Below, in pieces: positions 38,867-49,580 of a DNA stretch of 64,000 nucleotides. A model generated the notes under the pieces. That model was not told the origin of the DNA, did no database searches, and saw only the letters and a list, made by a program, of their open reading frames with translations. Position numbers and translations under genes: made by a program. Position 1 is the first letter of the stretch. Every line of letters starts with the position of its first letter. This DNA is from Halorussus rarus (GTDB lineage: Archaea > Halobacteriota > Halobacteria > Halobacteriales > Haladaptataceae), in contig NZ_QPMJ01000002.1 in assembly GCF_003369835.1 (NCBI RefSeq), forward strand, positions 434,001 through 498,000, in the 5' to 3' direction.

Positions 38867-39172
38867 GCCGAGTTCGTCCCTCCTTCGGACGGTCTCGCCC
38901 GAACCGACTCCGACCGAAATCGACCGCTTCGAACCCCTCCGAACCGCTTTGTACCACGTCGCTCGCTCGTTAAGGTCGGGCTATCCGAGGCCCGTCCGAC
39001 GACTGCCCGCGCGAGAGTCGGAATATCGACGAGCGACCGGCCGGGCGACCGCTACCTCGGCACCGGCGCCCGGTCACCGGTAACCGTCCGATTACCGACC
39101 TGTAATTCCGGTTACGGCGCGATGGCCAGTTTATAACAAAGTAGCGTTCGGGAACATGTCCTCCGGAGTACG
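38867..39172. promoter_or_regulatory. Upstream region of the FG-GAP/Gln-rich gene
   Basis: Contains an inverted repeat GTAACCG (39080-39086) / CGGTTAC (39109-39115) with ATTACCG and TAATTCCGG between, then a TATA box within ttataacaaagt (39131-39142), 31-42 bases before the ATG at 39173. The 10-base word ATAACAAAGT (39133-39142) recurs before the second Gln-rich gene at 44417-44426. The remaining sequence shows nothing recognisable. Confidence 0.5.
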
Positions 39173-42100
39173 ATGCAATCGAGACACGAGCGGTCGGGAG
39201 CGAGCGGCGTCGGGCGGGTTCGACGGCTGGCGGGAGTACTGGTGACATTTCTCGTATGCGGGCTCGTCGTGAGCGGCACGGCGGTGGCGGGTATCGGAGC
39301 ATTCGACGGCGAAACGCGGGATACTGTCTCGCTAGCGCCAGATTCCCCGGCGACGGCGGGCTCCTCCCCGGCGAGTCCGGGGGTCGCCGGACGCCAGACC
39401 CAGTCCGGATACAACACGTCGAACGATAGCTTCGGGTGGTCGGTGGCCTCGGCGGGCGACTTCAACGGCGACGGCGCCACCGACGTCGTCGTCGGCGCGC
39501 CGGGCCGCGGCACCAACAACACCGGCGGGGCGTACCTCTTCTACGGGCCGGTCACCGCCGAGAACATCTCGCTCTCGGACGCCGACCTGACGCTGACGGG
39601 CGAGTCGACCGGCGACTACGCCGGCTGGTCGGTCGACGGCGGCGACGTCGACGGCGACGGCTACGCGGACCTCGTCGTCGGGGCGCCCTACAACGACGAG
39701 GCCGGCCGGAACGCCGGCGCGGCCTACGTCGTCTTCGGCAGGGAGGACGCGAACGGCACCGTCTCGCTCGGCGAGGCGGGAACGAAACTGGTCGGCGGGG
39801 CCGACGGGAGCGAGGCCGGCTTCGACGTTAGCGCGCGCGACGTCGACTCGGCCGACGCTCCGGGGCTACTGGTCGGCGCGCCGGCGACTCGGACCGACGC
39901 ACGGCGGGGCGCCGCGCACCTCCTCGCCGGCGAGGCGCTCTCGAACCGGTCGACGGTGTCGCTCCCCGCCGCGGCACAGGGGTCGAACGCGACGCAAGCG
40001 CGGTTCGTCGGCGGCGCGGCCGACGACCGCGCCGGCTGGTCGGTCGCGTGGGCGGGCGACGTCGACGACGACGGCACCGCCGAAATCGCGGTCGGAGCGC
40101 CGTATCACAACGCGAGCGACGACCCGCGCGCCGGGGCGGTGTACCTCGCCGACGCGGACGCCTCTGGGCGTCAGAACCTCACCCAGTCCGAGGCCACGTT
40201 CCTCGGCGGGTCGGCCCACGACAACGCCGGCTTCGCCGTCGGGAGCGCCGACGACGCCAACGGCGACGGCGTCGCCGACCTGCTCGTCGGCGCACCCTCG
40301 AACGACACCTCCGGACGGAACGCGGGCGCCGCGTACGTCGTGTACGGCGGGGCGTCGCTGAACGGGACGCTGACCGCGGACCGGGCCGACGTGGCGGTGT
40401 TCGGCGAGGCGGCGGGCGACCGACTCGGGTGGTCGGTAGCGTCGGCCGGCGACGTCGACTGCGACGGCGACGACGACGTGGTCGCCGGCGCGCCGACCAA
40501 CGACGACACCGGGGCGGCGTACCTCGTCTACGGTCGGGGAACCGACGGCGGCGCGGTGGCCACGAAGCTCACCGGCGGCGGGGCGGGCGACTTCGCGGGC
40601 GCGAGCGTCGCCGGGCTCGGACGCGGCGACGACGGGAGCGACGTCCTGGTCGGCGCGCCCGGCAGCGACATCGGTCGCACCGACAGCGGCGCGGTGTACC
40701 TCGTGCGACCCCAGCGCGGGTGCGGGGCAGACGGTGACGGCGGTGGCGCGGGGGGCACTCGGACGGCAGCAGGCAACAGCAGTACCGCCAGTCCGGACTC
40801 CCGCGACGACGGGAGCGACGGCGGACTCCCCTCCCTGGAGTTCGCCGACGGTGACGAGTCGAGCGGCGACGCGACCGGCGCCGCCGTCCGGCTGGTCTCG
40901 AACGAGGGGGCTTCCGGCGCTGCGGGGAGCCCCGAGCAGCGAGCGTCCGGCGACGACAGGTCCAGCAGCGCTCGGTCCGACGGAGACCGGTCTGAGGGGG
41001 CTCCGACCGACCCGGAAGACGGGACGCCCGACAGAGGGGACAGTGGTTCCGGTTCCGACGATGGAGATTCGGGCCCCGAGAATGGCGACTCCGGCCCCGA
41101 CGGTGGCGACTCCAATCCCGACGACGGAAACTCCGACGACGGGAACTCGAGCCCCGACGACGGCGGAGAGGACGGGAACTCGGGCGACGGCGGGGACGAC
41201 CGGACCGACCGGGAGCCCGACCAGCGCCAGGGCATCCACGTCTACCAGAACCAGTGCCAGCGCCAGACCGGCGACGGGCAGCGCCAAGGCCAGTCACAGG
41301 GCGTCCGGGGCGGCCAGACCCAGTCGGACGGGAGCGTCAGCATCCGGTGGCAGTTCCAGCGGATCCACGTCCAGCAGACCCAGTGCCAGTACCAGGGCGA
41401 CGGCCACGACAACGCCCAGCGTCAGCGCCAGCAGCTGCGGATACGGTTCGCCCAGCAGCAGGGCGGTGACGACGAGCAGTCCCAGCGCCAGGACGTCGAG
41501 AGCCGCCAGAACCAGACGCAACGCCGGTCCGGGTCCGAGCAGGTCCAGACCCAGGTGCAGTGGTTCAGCGTGACCTTCGTCCAGGTCCAGCCGGTGAACG
41601 ACGCCGTCGACCAGTTGCAGTCCCAGTACCTCGACGTCGACCAGAACCAGGAGCAGTCCCAGGGCGACGGCTACGACCAGAGCCAGACGCAGTTCCAGGT
41701 CGTCCAGATCGTCTACCAGGGCCAGACCCAGACGTACGGGGGCGCCCAGGGACAGGCCCAGAACCAGTCGGTCGAGGCGAGCCAGCGCCAGCACCAGGAG
41801 CAGACCAACGTCTCGCAGAACCAGACCCAGAACCAGAGCGTCGACCTCCGACAGAACCAGACCCAGAACCAGACCGACCCGAACGCGAGCCAGACCCAGA
41901 ACCAGAGCATCGACGTCGACCAGGGCCAGAATCAGACGCAGGGCGACGAGGGGCCGAGCCAGTCCCAGCGCCAGAACCAGTCGGTCGACGCCGACCAGAA
42001 CCAGACCGAGGCCGGCGGCCCGAACCAGACGCAGACCCAGAACCAGACCGCCGAGCTGAACCAGAGCCAGACCCAGAACCAATCGCTGACCGGCGGGGAC

Positions 42101-43105
42101 GCGAACGAGAGCAGCGAGGTGGTCGCCGACCAGAACCAGACCCAGCGCCAGTACGGCGAGAACAACACGCAGCGACAGAACGAGTCGATCGCCGTCGACC
42201 AGAACCAGACCCAGTCGCAGACCGAGGCCAACGTCACTACAACCGTCTCGGCGGAAACCGAGGACGGGACCCGGAACGCGTCGGCGTCGAACGCGACCGA
42301 CGCGGCGGGGAATACCACCACGCGCGCGAGCGAGAACCTGACCACCACGTCGACCAACGAAACCACTACATCGACAAACGCGACCGCCACGACGGCGGAC
42401 GAGAACACGACGACGCGGACGGCCGACTCCGCGACTGCGGGAACCGAGACGGCCGCCGAGGCGGAAACTGTCGCCGAAGAGGAGACGACTGCGACGACCG
42501 AAGCGGGGTCGGCCGACGGTGAGCCGACTGCGACCACCGATGCGGCGTCTGACGAGGAGACGACCGAAGCGGAATCGGTCGACGAGGAAGAGCCGACCGA
42601 GTCTCCCACCGAGGAGGACGCCGACGAGGAGACGCCGGCCGGGCAGGAGTCGGACGACGAGACGCCGGAACCGACGACCGAGAAGACCGACGAGCAAACG
42701 GCGAACGAAGAGGGAACCGAGGAGTCGACGACAGAAGACGAATCGGACGACGAGGAGCCGACGACCGATGAGGACCCCGACGAGGAATCGACCGACGAGG
42801 CCCAGACGCAAGAGGGTGAGAAAGCCGATGAGGATGAGGCGACCGAAGCGGAGGAGAAAGACGGCGAAGACGAGGCGACCGAGGACGACGAGCCGACCGA
42901 CGAAGACGAGAATGCTGAAGAGGGCGAGCCGACCGAGGACGACGAGCCGACCGACGAAGACGACAAAGAGGAAGCGGACGAGACGACTACGGCGGACGAG
43001 TCGTCCGCTGCGGACGAACCGGCCGCCGAAGGTGGCGAAAGCACGACGACCGCCGCGGAGAGCGTCGCCGTCGCGGTCGGTCCACACGACTCGCTCGTAG
43101 CGTGA
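39173..43105 (+). CDS. Giant secreted protein: FG-GAP propeller, Gln/Asn ladder, acidic Thr-rich tail
   Basis: 1310 residues. A signal peptide (about 18-40, LAGVLVTFLVCGLVVSGTAV) is followed by seven FG-GAP repeats (about 82-515), each with VVVGAP-like strands and several Ca-binding loops such as DFNGDGATD, DVDGDGYAD and DANGDGVAD, forming an integrin-alpha-like seven-bladed propeller. A Gly/Asp/Ser linker (520-680) leads to about 340 residues (684-1021) of alternating Gln, as in QNQTQNQSVDLRQNQTQNQT, where each NQT/NQS is an N-glycosylation sequon. The tail (1022-1310) is Thr/Glu/Asp-rich. No C-terminal membrane segment or PGF-type anchor is visible, so it is released or held non-covalently. 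Probable adhesin or matrix scaffold; function inferred. Confidence 0.9.
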   Translation: MQSRHERSGASGVGRVRRLAGVLVTFLVCGLVVSGTAVAGIGAFDGETRDTVSLAPDSPATAGSSPASPGVAGRQTQSGYNTSNDSFGWSVASAGDFNGDGATDVVVGAPGRGTNNTGGAYLFYGPVTAENISLSDADLTLTGESTGDYAGWSVDGGDVDGDGYADLVVGAPYNDEAGRNAGAAYVVFGREDANGTVSLGEAGTKLVGGADGSEAGFDVSARDVDSADAPGLLVGAPATRTDARRGAAHLLAGEALSNRSTVSLPAAAQGSNATQARFVGGAADDRAGWSVAWAGDVDDDGTAEIAVGAPYHNASDDPRAGAVYLADADASGRQNLTQSEATFLGGSAHDNAGFAVGSADDANGDGVADLLVGAPSNDTSGRNAGAAYVVYGGASLNGTLTADRADVAVFGEAAGDRLGWSVASAGDVDCDGDDDVVAGAPTNDDTGAAYLVYGRGTDGGAVATKLTGGGAGDFAGASVAGLGRGDDGSDVLVGAPGSDIGRTDSGAVYLVRPQRGCGADGDGGGAGGTRTAAGNSSTASPDSRDDGSDGGLPSLEFADGDESSGDATGAAVRLVSNEGASGAAGSPEQRASGDDRSSSARSDGDRSEGAPTDPEDGTPDRGDSGSGSDDGDSGPENGDSGPDGGDSNPDDGNSDDGNSSPDDGGEDGNSGDGGDDRTDREPDQRQGIHVYQNQCQRQTGDGQRQGQSQGVRGGQTQSDGSVSIRWQFQRIHVQQTQCQYQGDGHDNAQRQRQQLRIRFAQQQGGDDEQSQRQDVESRQNQTQRRSGSEQVQTQVQWFSVTFVQVQPVNDAVDQLQSQYLDVDQNQEQSQGDGYDQSQTQFQVVQIVYQGQTQTYGGAQGQAQNQSVEASQRQHQEQTNVSQNQTQNQSVDLRQNQTQNQTDPNASQTQNQSIDVDQGQNQTQGDEGPSQSQRQNQSVDADQNQTEAGGPNQTQTQNQTAELNQSQTQNQSLTGGDANESSEVVADQNQTQRQYGENNTQRQNESIAVDQNQTQSQTEANVTTTVSAETEDGTRNASASNATDAAGNTTTRASENLTTTSTNETTTSTNATATTADENTTTRTADSATAGTETAAEAETVAEEETTATTEAGSADGEPTATTDAASDEETTEAESVDEEEPTESPTEEDADEETPAGQESDDETPEPTTEKTDEQTANEEGTEESTTEDESDDEEPTTDEDPDEESTDEAQTQEGEKADEDEATEAEEKDGEDEATEDDEPTDEDENAEEGEPTEDDEPTDEDDKEEADETTTADESSAADEPAAEGGESTTTAAESVAVAVGPHDSLVA
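41221..42235 (+). repeat. In-frame Gln/Asn-rich repeat tract
   Basis: About 1 kb of degenerate repeats of words like cagaaccagacccag, translating to Q-N-Q-T-Q. Repeats are imperfect and keep the reading frame and codon usage, so they are protein repeats under selection and not satellite DNA or CRISPR. Confidence 0.85.
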
Positions 43106-43164: not shown

Positions 43165-43926
43165 CTACGTCTCGGTCGTGGTCTCGGACGCGGCCGTGGT
43201 CTCGGTCTCGTTCATCCCGGTTCCGAACGGCGAGCAGTTCCGGATGACGGACACCGTCCGGTCGCCGCCGAGGTCGTCGGTGGAGGCGAAGGCCGCGACG
43301 ATCGCCTCCCCGTCGATTGACACCGTCTCGTTCCCGGCGAGCGTCATGGTGGAGCTGCTGGTCGACGTGCCGGTCGTCGACAGCTCGATGACGCTCACCT
43401 TGCCCACGTACTCGGTGTCCTCGTCCGCGACGAACCGGACCTCGTCGCCCTCGCAGTCGACTTCGATGTCGGGCTCGGTGTCGTCCTGCGACGCCGTCGT
43501 CGTCGCCGTCTCGCCCGCGTCGAGGCAGTCGGTCACGTCGGACGCGACGACCGCTTCGTCTTCGGATTCGTTCTGGACGATGGTGAACACGATCCCCCGC
43601 TCGTCGAGGTCGACCGTCGCGTTGCCCTCGACGGACCCGAACGACGAGCGCGACACGCTGTTGGAGTCGGCCAAGATGTTGGCGACCCCGACGGTCACGC
43701 CGTACTGGTACCCCTCGGGTGCCGTGATGCTGACGTTGGGTGCGGTGCAGTCGACGGTGATGTTCACTGTCGTCTGGTTCGCTGTCATCTGCGCGCTCGC
43801 TCCCGGGTGCCTGTCGATTCCATTCTCGGTCACTCCCCCCGCGATACTCGGCGCGAGGGCCCCGACGCCGAGTATCACAACCCCCACGAGAAGCGCCTCG
43901 GAGGGCGAGATTTCTACACGAGGCAT
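43165..43926 (-). CDS. Exported Cys- and Thr-rich protein of unknown function
   Basis: 253 residues. One hydrophobic segment near the N-terminus (about 11-33, ALLVGVVILGVGALAPSIAG) works as signal anchor or signal peptide. The exported part has four cysteines in similar settings (NITVDCTAPN, VTDCLDAGE, IEVDCEGDE, VIRNCSPFG), suggesting two disulfide-linked domains in tandem, plus many sequons and a Thr/Glu-rich C-terminus (MNETETTAASETTTET). It lies tail-to-tail with the FG-GAP/Gln-rich gene and back-to-back with the curlin-like gene, so it may belong to the same surface system. Confidence 0.78.
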   Translation of the reverse strand: MPRVEISPSEALLVGVVILGVGALAPSIAGGVTENGIDRHPGASAQMTANQTTVNITVDCTAPNVSITAPEGYQYGVTVGVANILADSNSVSRSSFGSVEGNATVDLDERGIVFTIVQNESEDEAVVASDVTDCLDAGETATTTASQDDTEPDIEVDCEGDEVRFVADEDTEYVGKVSVIELSTTGTSTSSSTMTLAGNETVSIDGEAIVAAFASTDDLGGDRTVSVIRNCSPFGTGMNETETTAASETTTET

Positions 43927-44492
43927 ACCGGTATCTCGTCGGAGACGTACAAACTGTTTCTGCTGGCGTTCACTCTATTCGGGATTGATATTGCGGAGAT
44001 GAAACCTGTAGCCATCCGGAATCGAGCCCACGAATGCCGGCGTTCGTCGGCGGACCACTGCGCGGAACCCAACGACTGCACAAGTCGCGCTAAAGCCCTC
44101 GTAACGGCGGACACTGCTCGGCAGCTGACGTCGCGCGGCCGCCGCCCGTGGCGCGATGAGCGGGGGTTCGGGTCGGCGGCGTGGCGGATATTTCTGCGCT
44201 TACGTCCTCGAAACCCAGATTACCGGGGGTAACGGTGGATTCTCCGTGCCGGCTAGGCCCGGGCTAACAACCTGCACTTGACCGCTCGATGCGACTCGAA
44301 CCGAATCCGCCGGTTGAACCGGGTTAGTCGACTGTCGGGCTGCGTAAGCTCAATTACCACCCCTCATGTGTCAATTTCGAGTATGTAATAGCGATTGAAT
44401 TCGGCGAGTCCGGATAATAACAAAGTCCGGTACTGTCGAGCATCGGTCTGCGGCAGGTGCCGTAGGGAAATCCAATGACAGGTGAGAAATCC
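43927..44492. promoter_or_regulatory. Upstream region of curlin-like repeat gene
   Basis: About 550 bases without a gene. A GATTACCG word (44218-44225) followed by GTAACGG (44229-44235) resembles elements before the FG-GAP gene. ATAACAAAGT (44417-44426) matches the same word in that promoter and contains the likely TATA box (gataataac). An AGGTGA ribosome-binding site is at 44480-44485. An AACCGGGTT half-palindrome occurs at 44317-44325. A long leader of about 45 bases is predicted. Confidence 0.5.
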
Positions 44493-46949
44493 ATGACGAA
44501 GCGGTTCGCCGTACTCTTCGCGATACTCGTCGCGAGCAGTATGGCATTGACAGGTATCGGAGCGGCAACCGTAGGCGGTACGCAGGACTGCGAGAGCGCG
44601 CAAGACCAGGCACTATCCGTCGACGCCAACCAGTCCAGCACGGATCTGAAGCATCTCGACACCAACAGTAATCAGACGGACGACCAGGACATCTCCGGAG
44701 ACGTCGACCAGTCGCAGGAAGCGACCGGGGATCGGAACTGCCAGGAGCAGTCCGAGAGCCTCACCGCGGAGCAGAAGGCGAACCAGACGCTCGTGGGCGG
44801 GAGCAACAGCGACCAGACCGCTGACCAGGACGCGACCGCCGAGAGCGACCAGGATCAGTTCGTCGAGGACGGCGACGACAACTACCAGGACCAACAGTCG
44901 GCCCAGTGGATGAGCCAGCAGCTGATCCAGCTGTCGTTCTTCGGTAGCAACAACACCCAGAACGCCACGCAGGACGCCGACCAGGAGAACGACCAGCTGC
45001 AGGTCGTCGCGAACGGCGACAACAACACGCAGGACGCCGACAACGAGCAGAACATCAGCCAGAAGCTCGTCCAGTTCGTCGCCTTCGGTAGCGACAACAC
45101 CCAGGACGCAGACCAGAACGCAGACCAGGTGAACGATCAGGACCAGATCGCCGTCAACGGCGACAACAACACGCAGGACGCCGACAACGACCAGGACATC
45201 ACCCAGCGCGGCGCGCAGATCATCCTCTTCGGCGACGACAACGACCAGGACCTCGACCAGGACGCCGACCAGGAGAACTACCAGGACCAGATCGCCGAGA
45301 ACGGTAGCGAGAACGACCAGGACGCCGACAACGAGCAGGATATCGACCAGGACGGCGGCCAGGTCGTCGTCTTCGGTGACGACAACGACCAGGACGCCGA
45401 CCAGGACGCCGAGCAGAAGAACGACCAGGAGCAGATCGTCTACGAGGGCGACGAGAACACCCAGGAGGCCGACAACGACCAGACCGCCGACCAGCAGAGC
45501 GAGCAGCAGGTCTGGGTCGGTAACAACAACACGCAGGACAGCGACCAGGACAGCTACCAAGACAGCGAGCAAATCCAGGAGATAATCTTCGGCAACGACA
45601 ACGATCAGGACGCCGACAGCGACCAGACCGCCGAACAGGACTCCGACCAGGACGTCAGCGGTGACCGCAACGTTCAGGAGAGCGACCAGATCGACGACCA
45701 GGACAGCGAGCAGTACCAGAACGCGACCGGCGACGACAACAAGCAGGACGCCGAGAGCGACCAGAACTCCTACCAGGAGAGCGACCAGGACGCTGACGGC
45801 GACGACAACGATCAGGACAGCTACCAGAACAGCGACCAGTCCAACGACCAGGACCAGATCGCGAGCGGCGACGAGAACGACCAGGAGCAGGACTCCGAGC
45901 AGGACAACGACCAGGACGAGGACCAGGACGCCGACGGTGACAAGAACGACCAGGACGCCGACCAGACGAACGACCAGATCAGCGACCAGTACCAGCAGTC
46001 GAGCGGCGAGAACGCCGACCAGGACCAGGACTCCGACCAGGACTCCGACCAGGACTCCGACCAAGACGCTGACGGCGACAAGAACAAGCAGGACAGCGAC
46101 CAGGACAGCGAGCAGGAGAGCGGTCAGGACCAGAGCACTAGCGGTGACGACAACGAACAGGATCAGTACAGCGAGCAGGACTCCGAGCAGGACTCCGAGC
46201 AGGACTCCGACAGTGACGAGAACGTCCAGGAGAGCGACCAGGTCGGTGACCAGGACAGCGAGCAGGACCAGGACGCCGACGGCGAGGACAACGACCAGGA
46301 GCAGGACAGCGAGCAGGACGCTGAGCAGAACAGCGACCAGGACGCCGACGGCGAGGACAACGACCAGGACAGCTACCAGAACAGCGACCAGGAGAGCGAC
46401 CAGGAGCAGAGCTCCAGCGGTGACGACAACGAGCAGGACCAGGAGAGCGACCAGGACGTCGAGCAGGACCTCGACCAAGAGGCTGACGGCGACGACAACG
46501 ACCAGGACGCCGATCAGGTGAGCGACCAGGAGAGCGACCAGGAGCAGAGCTCCAGCGGCGAGGACAACGACCAGGACCAGGAGCAGAGCAGCGACGTCGA
46601 ACAGGAGAGCGACCAGGAGGCTGACGGCGACGACAACGACCAAGAGCAACGGTCGGAGGTCGACGTCGATCAGGACCAGGAGCAGAGTTCGAGCGGCGAC
46701 GACAACGAACAGGACCAGGAACAGGACGTCGAGGTCGACCAGGAGCAGGACCAGGACGCGGACGGTGAAGACGACGAGCAGGAGCAGAGCTCGGACGTCG
46801 ACGTCGATCAGGAGCAGGAGCAGAGCACCTCCGGTAGCGGCAACGACCAGGATCAGAGCCAGTCGGTGTCGGTCAGCACCGACCAGGACCAGGACTCGGA
46901 CGACGATGACGACGAGAAGAAGAGTCTGATTGCGCCCCTGGCGCTCTGA
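44493..46949 (+). CDS. Secreted acidic repeat protein with curlin-like 23-24-residue repeats
   Basis: 818 residues from the ATG at 44493, chosen because AGGTGA at 44480-44485 is 7 bases upstream; an in-frame ATG at 44475 is the alternative. A Sec signal (MTKRFAVLFAILVASSMALT) precedes about 28 tandem repeats of 23-24 residues beginning G-x2-N-x-Q, for example FGDDNDQDADQDAEQ and NGDNNTQDADNEQNISQ. Curlin repeats of CsgA read G-x-G-N-x-A-x3-Q, so Gly, Asn and the Gln nine after Gly coincide in many units. Early repeats carry hydrophobic strands (IIL, VVV, FVAF); later ones become nearly all D, Q, S, E. Repeats alternate in type, giving a 48-residue super-unit. Likely an extracellular beta-solenoid or amyloid-like fibre, possibly Ca2+-bound; inference. 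No CsgG/CsgE homologue is nearby. Confidence 0.88.
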   Translation: MTKRFAVLFAILVASSMALTGIGAATVGGTQDCESAQDQALSVDANQSSTDLKHLDTNSNQTDDQDISGDVDQSQEATGDRNCQEQSESLTAEQKANQTLVGGSNSDQTADQDATAESDQDQFVEDGDDNYQDQQSAQWMSQQLIQLSFFGSNNTQNATQDADQENDQLQVVANGDNNTQDADNEQNISQKLVQFVAFGSDNTQDADQNADQVNDQDQIAVNGDNNTQDADNDQDITQRGAQIILFGDDNDQDLDQDADQENYQDQIAENGSENDQDADNEQDIDQDGGQVVVFGDDNDQDADQDAEQKNDQEQIVYEGDENTQEADNDQTADQQSEQQVWVGNNNTQDSDQDSYQDSEQIQEIIFGNDNDQDADSDQTAEQDSDQDVSGDRNVQESDQIDDQDSEQYQNATGDDNKQDAESDQNSYQESDQDADGDDNDQDSYQNSDQSNDQDQIASGDENDQEQDSEQDNDQDEDQDADGDKNDQDADQTNDQISDQYQQSSGENADQDQDSDQDSDQDSDQDADGDKNKQDSDQDSEQESGQDQSTSGDDNEQDQYSEQDSEQDSEQDSDSDENVQESDQVGDQDSEQDQDADGEDNDQEQDSEQDAEQNSDQDADGEDNDQDSYQNSDQESDQEQSSSGDDNEQDQESDQDVEQDLDQEADGDDNDQDADQVSDQESDQEQSSSGEDNDQDQEQSSDVEQESDQEADGDDNDQEQRSEVDVDQDQEQSSSGDDNEQDQEQDVEVDQEQDQDADGEDDEQEQSSDVDVDQEQEQSTSGSGNDQDQSQSVSVSTDQDQDSDDDDDEKKSLIAPLAL
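44943..46890 (+). repeat. About 28 tandem coding repeats of 69-72 bp
   Basis: Tandem units of about 69-72 bases with recurring gacaacgaccaggac words. They diverge at third positions but keep G, N and Q codons, implying selection on protein. Late units (after about 46020) are closer to each other than early units, suggesting recent expansion at the 3' side. Confidence 0.85.
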
Positions 46950-47068: not shown

Positions 47069-48499
47069 TCAGCAGAAGTTCTGCGTGGCGTACACCTTCC
47101 CCTCGGACGTGATGTAGAGGCCGATACCCTCCTTGTTCCAGCCCGCGGTCAGGATGTTCTCGCGGTGGCCCTCGGAGTTCATCCACTGGCTGACGATGCC
47201 GGCGGCCAGTTCGTCGGCGTTGTCGTGGTGGATGGTGCCGTCGTCGGTCCTGACGTCCGTGTCGTAGTAGGTGTAGGCGATGTTCTCGCCGCCGGTGTAG
47301 TACCGGGTGTCGGTGATGTACGCCCGGCAGTCGTAGCCGAACGTCTCGTACCGGTCCGACCGCGACTCCCCGCTCGGAGAGGTGTGACTGAAGTAGTCGT
47401 TCTCGGCCATGTCCCTGCTGTGGTACCGGGCGATCTCGCGGAGGTCGGTGTCGAAGTCGAGCGTGCCCAGGCCGTGGTCCGTCCGGCGCTCGTTGATGTA
47501 CTCGTGGACGAGTCGCTCCACGCGATTCCTGTCGAGTTCCGAGAGGGGCGTCTCCTCGTCGACCGCTTCCCCGTCATCCCCCTCCCGCTCCGCGACGCCT
47601 TCGACCACGAGATAGCCCACGCGCTCGCCCAGGTGGGCGGTCTCGGCGTCGGCGCTGCGCTCCTCTTGAACCTTCACGTCGACCGACGAACCGGTCAGAT
47701 TCCGGTACCGGACCGAGCAGGTGTTCGACCCCCGGAACGTCTGCACGTCGACCAGGAGGACGGGGTCCGCGTAGCTGTCGCCGAACTCGATGGTGGTCCA
47801 GGCGTCGCCGACGCCCGAGCGGGTCCCCGCCTCGTAGGCGCGGCCGTCGAGCGTCCCCGACCCGGGCTCGACCGCGAGGTAGCCGACGTCCTCGACCCGG
47901 TGAGGGCCCTGGGCCTCGGCCTCCTGGAGGCGCACCGAGAGTCCGGACGCAGACACGTCGCTGTGGCGCGTGACGACCGGCTGGCCGCCCGCGACCGTCT
48001 GGGACTGCGAGAACACCACGGGCGCCGACGAGAACGACGCGGAGAAGGCGACCGACTCCCAGCGGTGGTCGGTCCGGACCCGGCCGGTTTCGAGGGCGGT
48101 GCCGTCCGCGAGGGCGTACTCGCCGGGTTCGGTGGCGAGGTAGCCGACCGTCTCCTCGCGGTGGGCGCCGTCGAGGTACCCCCACTCCTCGACCCGGAGG
48201 TCGAACGCGTCGCTCCCGACGTCGCGGAGGCGGGGGGACGCGGGCTGGGGGCCCCGGTAGCTCAGCCCCGACGAGAGGACGACCGGGTCGGTCGACGACC
48301 CGGACAGCCCCACCGTCTGCCAGGTGTGGTTGACCGCGGCCGACCCCGCGTCGACCGTGACGGCGGGGGCCAGTGCCGCCGTTCGCTCGGCGACTGCGCC
48401 GAGGCCGATGCCGCCGGCGAGCAGTCCAGTCGCCCGGAGATAGCCGCGTCTGCTCAGTGATGCCTCTGATTCGGAGTTGACGCTCGTGTCGCGGACCAT
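47069..48499 (-). CDS. Tat-exported protein: three lectin-like repeats and C-terminal CAP domain
   Basis: 476 residues from the ATG at 48499. Tat signal SRRGYLRATGLLAGGIGLGA, then three homologous repeats of about 80 residues (about 60-310), each with the pattern W-x2-V-x-F/L ... PVV ... VGYLATE/VGYLAVE/VGYLVVE, similar to H-type-lectin-like or jelly-roll surface repeats. Residues about 330-476 are a CAP/SCP domain with YHSRDMAENDYFSHTSPSG, GGENIAY and QWMNSEGHRENIL, all hallmark CAP motifs. CAP proteins act outside cells and bind lipids, metals or matrix. A TATA box (tttttaaacg on this strand, plus 48528-48537) is 30 bases upstream. Confidence 0.9.
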   Translation of the reverse strand: MVRDTSVNSESEASLSRRGYLRATGLLAGGIGLGAVAERTAALAPAVTVDAGSAAVNHTWQTVGLSGSSTDPVVLSSGLSYRGPQPASPRLRDVGSDAFDLRVEEWGYLDGAHREETVGYLATEPGEYALADGTALETGRVRTDHRWESVAFSASFSSAPVVFSQSQTVAGGQPVVTRHSDVSASGLSVRLQEAEAQGPHRVEDVGYLAVEPGSGTLDGRAYEAGTRSGVGDAWTTIEFGDSYADPVLLVDVQTFRGSNTCSVRYRNLTGSSVDVKVQEERSADAETAHLGERVGYLVVEGVAEREGDDGEAVDEETPLSELDRNRVERLVHEYINERRTDHGLGTLDFDTDLREIARYHSRDMAENDYFSHTSPSGESRSDRYETFGYDCRAYITDTRYYTGGENIAYTYYDTDVRTDDGTIHHDNADELAAGIVSQWMNSEGHRENILTAGWNKEGIGLYITSEGKVYATQNFC

Positions 48500-48635
48500 G
48501 CGCGTGGTCGGTGCTCCCACCAGTCGTTTAAAAATATTCTGCTTTCTTTGAAAACTAGCCCGCCAGATTACACGAACCGGAGAACGTCCGACGGACCGTC
48601 CGACGGTGCGCTCGGTCGGCCTGCCGACGCCCGCC

Positions 48636-49433: not shown

Positions 49434-49580
49434 CTACAAGTGGGCCGGCGGACAAAGTGATTCGGGCCGTACGCGGGCCTTGAACCGAAGATAGGCGCAA
49501 CCAAACCGCCGCGGAACGAAAGTGCGACACCAGGACCGGACCCGCGGCCTCGCGTAATCGGTGTTACCGGGACGAACTCC

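Follow-up and report, generated by a model that had tools for sequence, protein, structure and literature searches.

A putative curli-like surface fibre of haloarchaea: a propeller-bearing Gln-ladder gene and its acidic Gln-ladder partner in Halorussus rarus

Gene A of Halorussus rarus (39173..43105, plus strand, 1310 amino acids) lies in a 64,000-nucleotide stretch of contig NZ_QPMJ01000002.1 (positions 434,001 to 498,000; hereafter the window) and encodes an FG-GAP propeller, an acidic linker, a domain with glutamine (Gln) at alternating positions (the Gln ladder) and an acidic Thr tail. A first-pass annotation, made from the letters alone, took it for an adhesin head on a self-associating, glycosylated stalk. 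The first-pass annotation missed the adjacent partner gene B (44475..46949, plus strand), which encodes an acidic Gln-ladder repeat protein of 824 amino acids. Judged against the literature searched, and from sequence comparisons, the A–B pair appears to encode a curli-like surface fibre that has not been described before.

A profile of the A ladder matched eight of 392 genomes of the order. The match in genome G121 (genome and locus numbers, G and L, are our own), with E 1e-9, was dropped because it lies in a different Gln-containing repeat protein, and the A genomes are therefore seven of 392 and not eight. In all seven strong ladder loci, spread over three families, a B-like gene adjoins A and lies downstream of it, either immediately or after one intervening gene on the opposite strand. 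These loci belong to Halorussus (the window's genome, H. amylolyticus YC93 (G011) and G013), to Halostella pelagica DL-M4 (G060) and to three genomes of one genus (g31) of the third family (G191, G285 and G264). B-like genes were detected in 5 of 99 relatives with a single-protein query and in 14 of the 392 order genomes with a profile query, and all seven A genomes are among these 14 (hypergeometric probability 1e-11, uncorrected for kinship). A phylum sample of 392 genomes held the ladder in the window's genome (G000) and G060 only, besides a weak match in G100 (E 7e-9) that was left out of the count of A genomes. In the genus survey 3 of 18 genomes had A-type propellers (660–700 bits; next best 371 bits), each together with the ladder; random loss of the Gln region among relatives, named in the first-pass annotation as the outcome that would speak against it, was not seen. 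The B-like gene of G264 (L049:7664-9335, minus strand) is broken by in-frame stops beside an intact A, which may be decay or a sequencing error. The protein behind the G121 match (L050:5838-11495, minus strand) has 1886 amino acids and many repeats resembling 'QRQSVTVEQIQxAAxGAAxGAL'.

The two genes also share promoter elements. A palindrome, GTAAY-N4-RTTAC, probably an operator, stands 71 nt upstream of the start codon (ATG) of A (39102..39115, plus strand), and exact copies were found 67–75 nt before A in six of the seven loci, all distances resting on the chosen ATG start codons. The window contains two exact copies (39102 and 49554) against 0.01 expected, and in L029, L030 and L031 (16–18 kb each) the copy before A is the sole exact one. 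Exact copies also precede B in G191 and G285 (two each) and in G264, and in the window a near-palindrome with one mismatch lies 131 nt upstream of the first ATG in B (44344..44357, plus strand). A further element, ATAACAAAGT, overlaps TTTATA in the promoter of A (39133..39142, plus strand) and recurs in that of B (44417..44426, plus strand); these two, 30 nt upstream of A and 48 nt upstream of B, are its only matches in the window, with an expectation of 0.07 (up to one mismatch). A search of 14 whole genomes for the composite GTAAY-N4-RTTAC-N15-19-ATAACAA gave seven matches in five genomes, five before A, two before B and none elsewhere, and the reversed composite gave no match in the same genomes; the composite was not found in G236, G320 and G296, three genomes that have B but no A. 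By these counts the composite signature is strong yet not universal, and A and B are apparently switched on together. The gap between A and B measures 167–218 nt in G060, G191 and G285 and 629–1369 nt in the Halorussus loci, which fits separate promoters for the two genes. The second exact palindrome of the window (49554-49567) is without the ATAACAA element.

The ladder of A (amino acids 684-1020; 41222..42232, plus strand) has 337 residues, 29.7% of them Gln, and a period of about 23 residues. Gln pairs at spacing 2 number 67 versus 29.5 in shuffled sequences and adjacent pairs 4 versus 29.7, which bears out the alternation proposed earlier and led to the rejection of a poly-Gln prion-like domain. 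The ladder carries 21 glycosylation sequons where 5.1 ± 1.9 were expected, and none of 2000 shuffles, in which every Gln was held fixed and the remaining residues were shuffled, reached 21. Twenty of the 21 fall in the C-terminal half, so that the sequon-packed face ascribed to the whole ladder holds for half of it. The N-terminal half contains hydrophobic stretches and two Cys residues, each in a QxQCQ motif, conserved in all seven homologues.

In the alignment of the seven ladders (window, G013, G060, G011, G191, G285 and G264), the six others are 44–65% identical to that of the window, and Gln is present in all seven at 62 columns. The majority residue occurs in 89% of the sequences on average at the Gln columns, compared with 54% at other columns. 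The ladder is the part of A most alike in the window and in the closest relative, G013, with 66% identity over 337 residues and no gaps, followed by the propeller (61%), the linker (38%) and the tail (36%); since the ratio of nonsynonymous to synonymous change (dN/dS) in this pair is 0.70 for the ladder and 0.56 for the propeller, the identity figures are no proof of stronger constraint on the ladder at the protein level. Sequons occupy 62 columns of the alignment, none common to all seven proteins and three common to six, and each ladder contains 15–28 of them (3.7–8.7 expected); their density is kept while their positions shift between homologues. The window ladder and four of the six other homologues are most self-similar at a shift of 23 residues, whereas G191 and G285 peak at 45 and 12. 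In none of the seven members is the ladder covered by a Pfam model (best E 0.57). On sequence evidence the ladder is a conserved domain and not low-complexity filler, and a plain low-complexity expansion was rejected on its conservation and its gap-free alignment to G013. Slippage could originally have made it, as CAG codes for 97 of the 100 Gln residues of the ladder.

In B of the window, a GDDNxQxAxQ... repeat recurs every 23–24 residues, giving 28 GxxN turns mostly at this distance; the same spacing prevails in all five B proteins compared. The Gln residues of B are one-sided, at spacings 4 and 2, and the protein is strongly acidic (net charge −254). A and B have in common a signal-like N-terminus, the absence of a membrane anchor and a one-sided Gln ladder with a period of about 23 residues. 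Their ladder profiles align with a probability of 69 (E 4e-5), a match open to composition bias. An unlinked paralogue of B is present in the same genome (G000:C1:1608934-1611135, minus strand; L032), with a frame of 815 codons and a C-terminus of greater hydrophobicity; the 14 kb around it showed no A-like gene.

As with CsgA and CsgB, the curli subunits, where a repeat-only subunit gene stands beside the gene of a second subunit, B adjoins A; the A–B pair differs in that one subunit bears a propeller head and in being archaeal. Curli repeats, as described in PMC10192328, are 23 ± 5 residues long, with N-$-Psi-$-Psi-$-Q motifs, X-G-X-X arcs, a QX10Q kernel and Gln ladders. B resembles curli (PF07012) in its Gln ladders, in repeats of about 23 residues and in having an X-G-X-X turn ahead of N, and the 23-residue repeat length is found in all five B proteins and in five of the seven A ladders. 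The inward positions are different. In nine B proteins, 216 of the 218 GxxN.....Q motifs have Gln at the first inward position after N; motifs of the curlin type, with hydrophobic or S/T Psi, number zero, and those of the Gln type 8–27 per protein in all nine. Alanine never takes this position in B, unlike in the curlin of its own genome, a PF07012 protein (G000:C5:49422-50561, minus strand; L074:6422-7561) with eight repeats over the cut-off, GDDNDADVDQ repeats and a charged C-terminal part. A search of 14 whole genomes with PF07012 gave no match at A or B, and the A ladder profile none among solved structures at E <= 10. By these comparisons A and B are not classed as curlin, although they may function in a curli-like way.

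The propeller of A (amino acids 78-515; 39404..40717, plus strand) matches Pfam FG-GAP PF01839 in six stretches with 135.4 bits (cut-off 22.1). Seven repeats with Ca-loops had been reported; seven GAP blade motifs are indeed present, but Dx[DN]xDG-type Ca-loops in five blades only, and every one of the seven A proteins has four or five. By blade score and Ca-loops, A belongs to the FG-GAP/integrin-type beta-propeller class, with which it shares seven blades and the Dx[DN]xDG loops and from which it differs by the fusion to a Gln-ladder domain. FG-GAP propellers are known from bacteria (PMC3192720).

The hydrophobic, signal-peptide-like N-terminus of A (about amino acids 12-40; 39206..39292, plus strand) reaches a hydropathy peak of 2.23 at residue 23, as taken from a hydropathy profile with no cleavage site predicted. 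The propeller is joined to the ladder by a poorly conserved acidic Gly/Ser/Asp linker (amino acids 516-683; 40718..41221, plus strand), and an acidic Thr/Glu tail follows (amino acids 1021-1310; 42233..43102, plus strand). In agreement with the anchorless tail described earlier, no membrane segment was found in the last 150 residues of A of the window (maximum 19-residue hydropathy 0.76), nor any C-terminal hydrophobic anchor segment in the last 150 residues of the seven A proteins (maximum at most 0.79); a hydrophobic segment of this position, of the PGF-CTERM kind, was our sign of a membrane- or sortase-anchored haloarchaeal surface protein. In the same genome, two further long FG-GAP proteins (C2:238k and C4:66k) each combine a Thr-rich stalk with a hydrophobic C-terminal segment that precedes Arg. 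The very acidic tails of A and B in Halorussus run out in short uncharged ends (such as ...LAPA, ...IAPLAL, ...VAPVAL, ...SPTIG), possibly a small C-terminal signal.

Other Gln-ladder pairs occur in haloarchaea. In L065, L066 and L067 (G255, G215 and G195) a gene made of ladder only adjoins one with a signal-like N-terminus, an acidic linker and a ladder, as in A–B, but the propeller is absent and the turn is often GEDN; these ladder genes match B only as remote profile matches (E 1e-16 to 1e-38), and L065 has three adjacent Gln-ladder genes. Such propeller-free pairs suggest that a two-gene ladder scheme is more widespread in haloarchaea and that the propeller head may have been added to it. 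In L061, L063 and L064, from all three genomes of one genus (G236, G320 and G296), a B-like gene faces a gene of 427–484 amino acids whose Q..NVQ repeats look like those of curlin and whose tail is acidic, and a similar curlin-looking gene is found near a second B-like gene in L062.

The reading to which we incline, by a slight degree of belief, is that A and B are the subunits of a co-regulated two-component extracellular surface fibre, B the major one and A a minor one bearing the propeller. By analogy with curli, B would fold or stack as beta-arches, with Gln inward where curli has hydrophobic residues, and the stacked protein, its 28 turns marked by GxxN, would form acidic fibres on the outer surface. 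The A ladder, of about 13 rungs, would join this fibre by its open Gln edge and serve there as a cap, a nucleator or a tip; its sequon-rich outer face would carry glycans, and the Ca-binding propeller would be displayed as an adhesin head. As A has no anchor of its own, it would rely on B for retention on the cell. The pairing of the genes, their common promoter signature, the agreement of the ladder periods and the want of anchors can be read from the sequences; secretion, folding, co-assembly, glycosylation and adhesion are inferred. Also in favour of this reading are the high identity of the ladder to that of G013, the alignment of the A and B ladder profiles, the all-beta AlphaFold2 model of the A ladder and the match of the B profile to curlin 8c50. 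The secreted-looking head and the one-sided ladder of the first-pass annotation are kept in this arrangement, but with B as partner the ladder probably does not act as a stalk by itself. That the pair is an archaeal counterpart of curli, evolved or diverged so that a core mainly of Gln ladders replaces the hydrophobic zippers, and with a two-gene regulon in which a Ca-propeller adhesin is plugged in by a matching, glycosylated ladder, is a further claim that we put forward tentatively and rather doubt.

Several results weigh against a co-assembled, curli-like fibre. Half of the 14 B genomes carry B without A, and the composite promoter signature is lacking before A in G060 and G264 and before B in the window, G011, G013, G060 and G264. 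The acidity of B (net −254) could oppose stacking at low salt. With three sequences as input, AlphaFold2 gave an all-beta model with 14 strands for the A ladder at a low mean confidence score (predicted local distance difference test, pLDDT) of 47, and for B no strands at a mean pLDDT of 32. A Foldseek search with the A ladder model returned nothing at E <= 0.001; its matches at E >= 0.03, mostly barrels and apolipoprotein B, were rejected as meaningless. QX10Q is not enriched (26 versus 31 in shuffles for B of the window, 24 versus 28 for its A ladder), and the Curlin_rpt model PF07012 matched none of six B and seven A-ladder members at E <= 10. Membership of A or B in Curlin_rpt was rejected on this missing profile match, on Gln as the first Psi and on the unenriched QX10Q. 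Pairwise BLAST of B against the curlin of its genome gave E 0.85. Among solved structures the B profile matched the curlin 8c50 with E 1e-7, a result open to composition bias and weakened by a formin that scored almost as well in the same search (5e-6), as composition bias alone reaches such scores.

The ladders might instead be flexible, hydrophilic, sugar-bearing stalks without ordered stacking, A being a surface adhesin and B a mucin-like acidic matrix protein, both meant for salty surroundings. Sequons in excess in all seven A ladders, their turnover over 62 columns at a constant density, the extreme acidity of B and of the tails and the low confidence of the structure predictions are all what such spacers would lead one to expect. 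They would not explain why Gln is strictly one-sided and invariant at 62 columns, why Cys and hydrophobic positions are invariant as well, or why the A ladder and B have a 23-residue period in common; moreover, the ladder aligns with that of G013 over its whole length without gaps, whereas the true spacers of the protein, linker and tail, have fallen to 36–38% identity. We consider stalks of this kind unlikely.

A looser association, in which one biofilm regulon drives two independent proteins, an adhesin A and a separate matrix fibre B made together but not assembled together, would suit genes that each have a promoter of their own carrying the shared element, and B-type genes that exist without A beside other partners. 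Against it, A adjoins B in seven of seven loci and has no anchor, and the partners of the B-like genes in L065–L067 likewise carry a Gln ladder; we regard it as improbable. Lastly, A could be set free as a Ca-dependent protein that binds ligands or glycans, or as a decoy, its ladder serving only to multimerise A itself. The missing anchor, the seven-blade propeller with Ca-loops and a ladder that could pair with itself would agree with release, but the constant neighbour B and the shared promoter would be left unexplained, and this last proposal appears very improbable.

The genes around the pair were compared across the seven loci using frames of at least 130 amino acids with at most 6% Gln. 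Gene C (43165..43926, minus strand), encoding a small secreted-looking protein with only a weak match to Pfam DUF7464, and gene D (47069..48520, minus strand), encoding a CAP-domain (PF00188) protein, both recur at three of the seven A–B loci, those of Halorussus only, in altered gene order; the D proteins are 66–68% identical among the three. A DUF7344-like gene follows B in four loci, that of Halostella and the three of g31 (in two of these the match to DUF7344 was checked), and is a candidate regulator of the A and B promoters.

Our literature search, which left most subscription journals and all preprints outside its scope, found no report on a curlin of haloarchaea or other archaea, on haloarchaeal FG-GAP proteins, on the propeller-free Gln-ladder gene pairs or on amyloid in Halorussus, and the passages of PMC10192328 consulted do not mention archaea. 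The biofilm matrix of Haloferax volcanii binds amyloid dyes, the responsible protein being only conjectured (PMC4180959). If the proposed fibre is real, a co-regulated pair with curli-like repeats would make archaeal surface fibres directly accessible to genetics in the genera that have the pair. Whether a one-sided beta core made almost wholly of Gln forms a stable and useful fibre in molar salt could then be tested, as could the way in which an adhesin head is attached to such a fibre.

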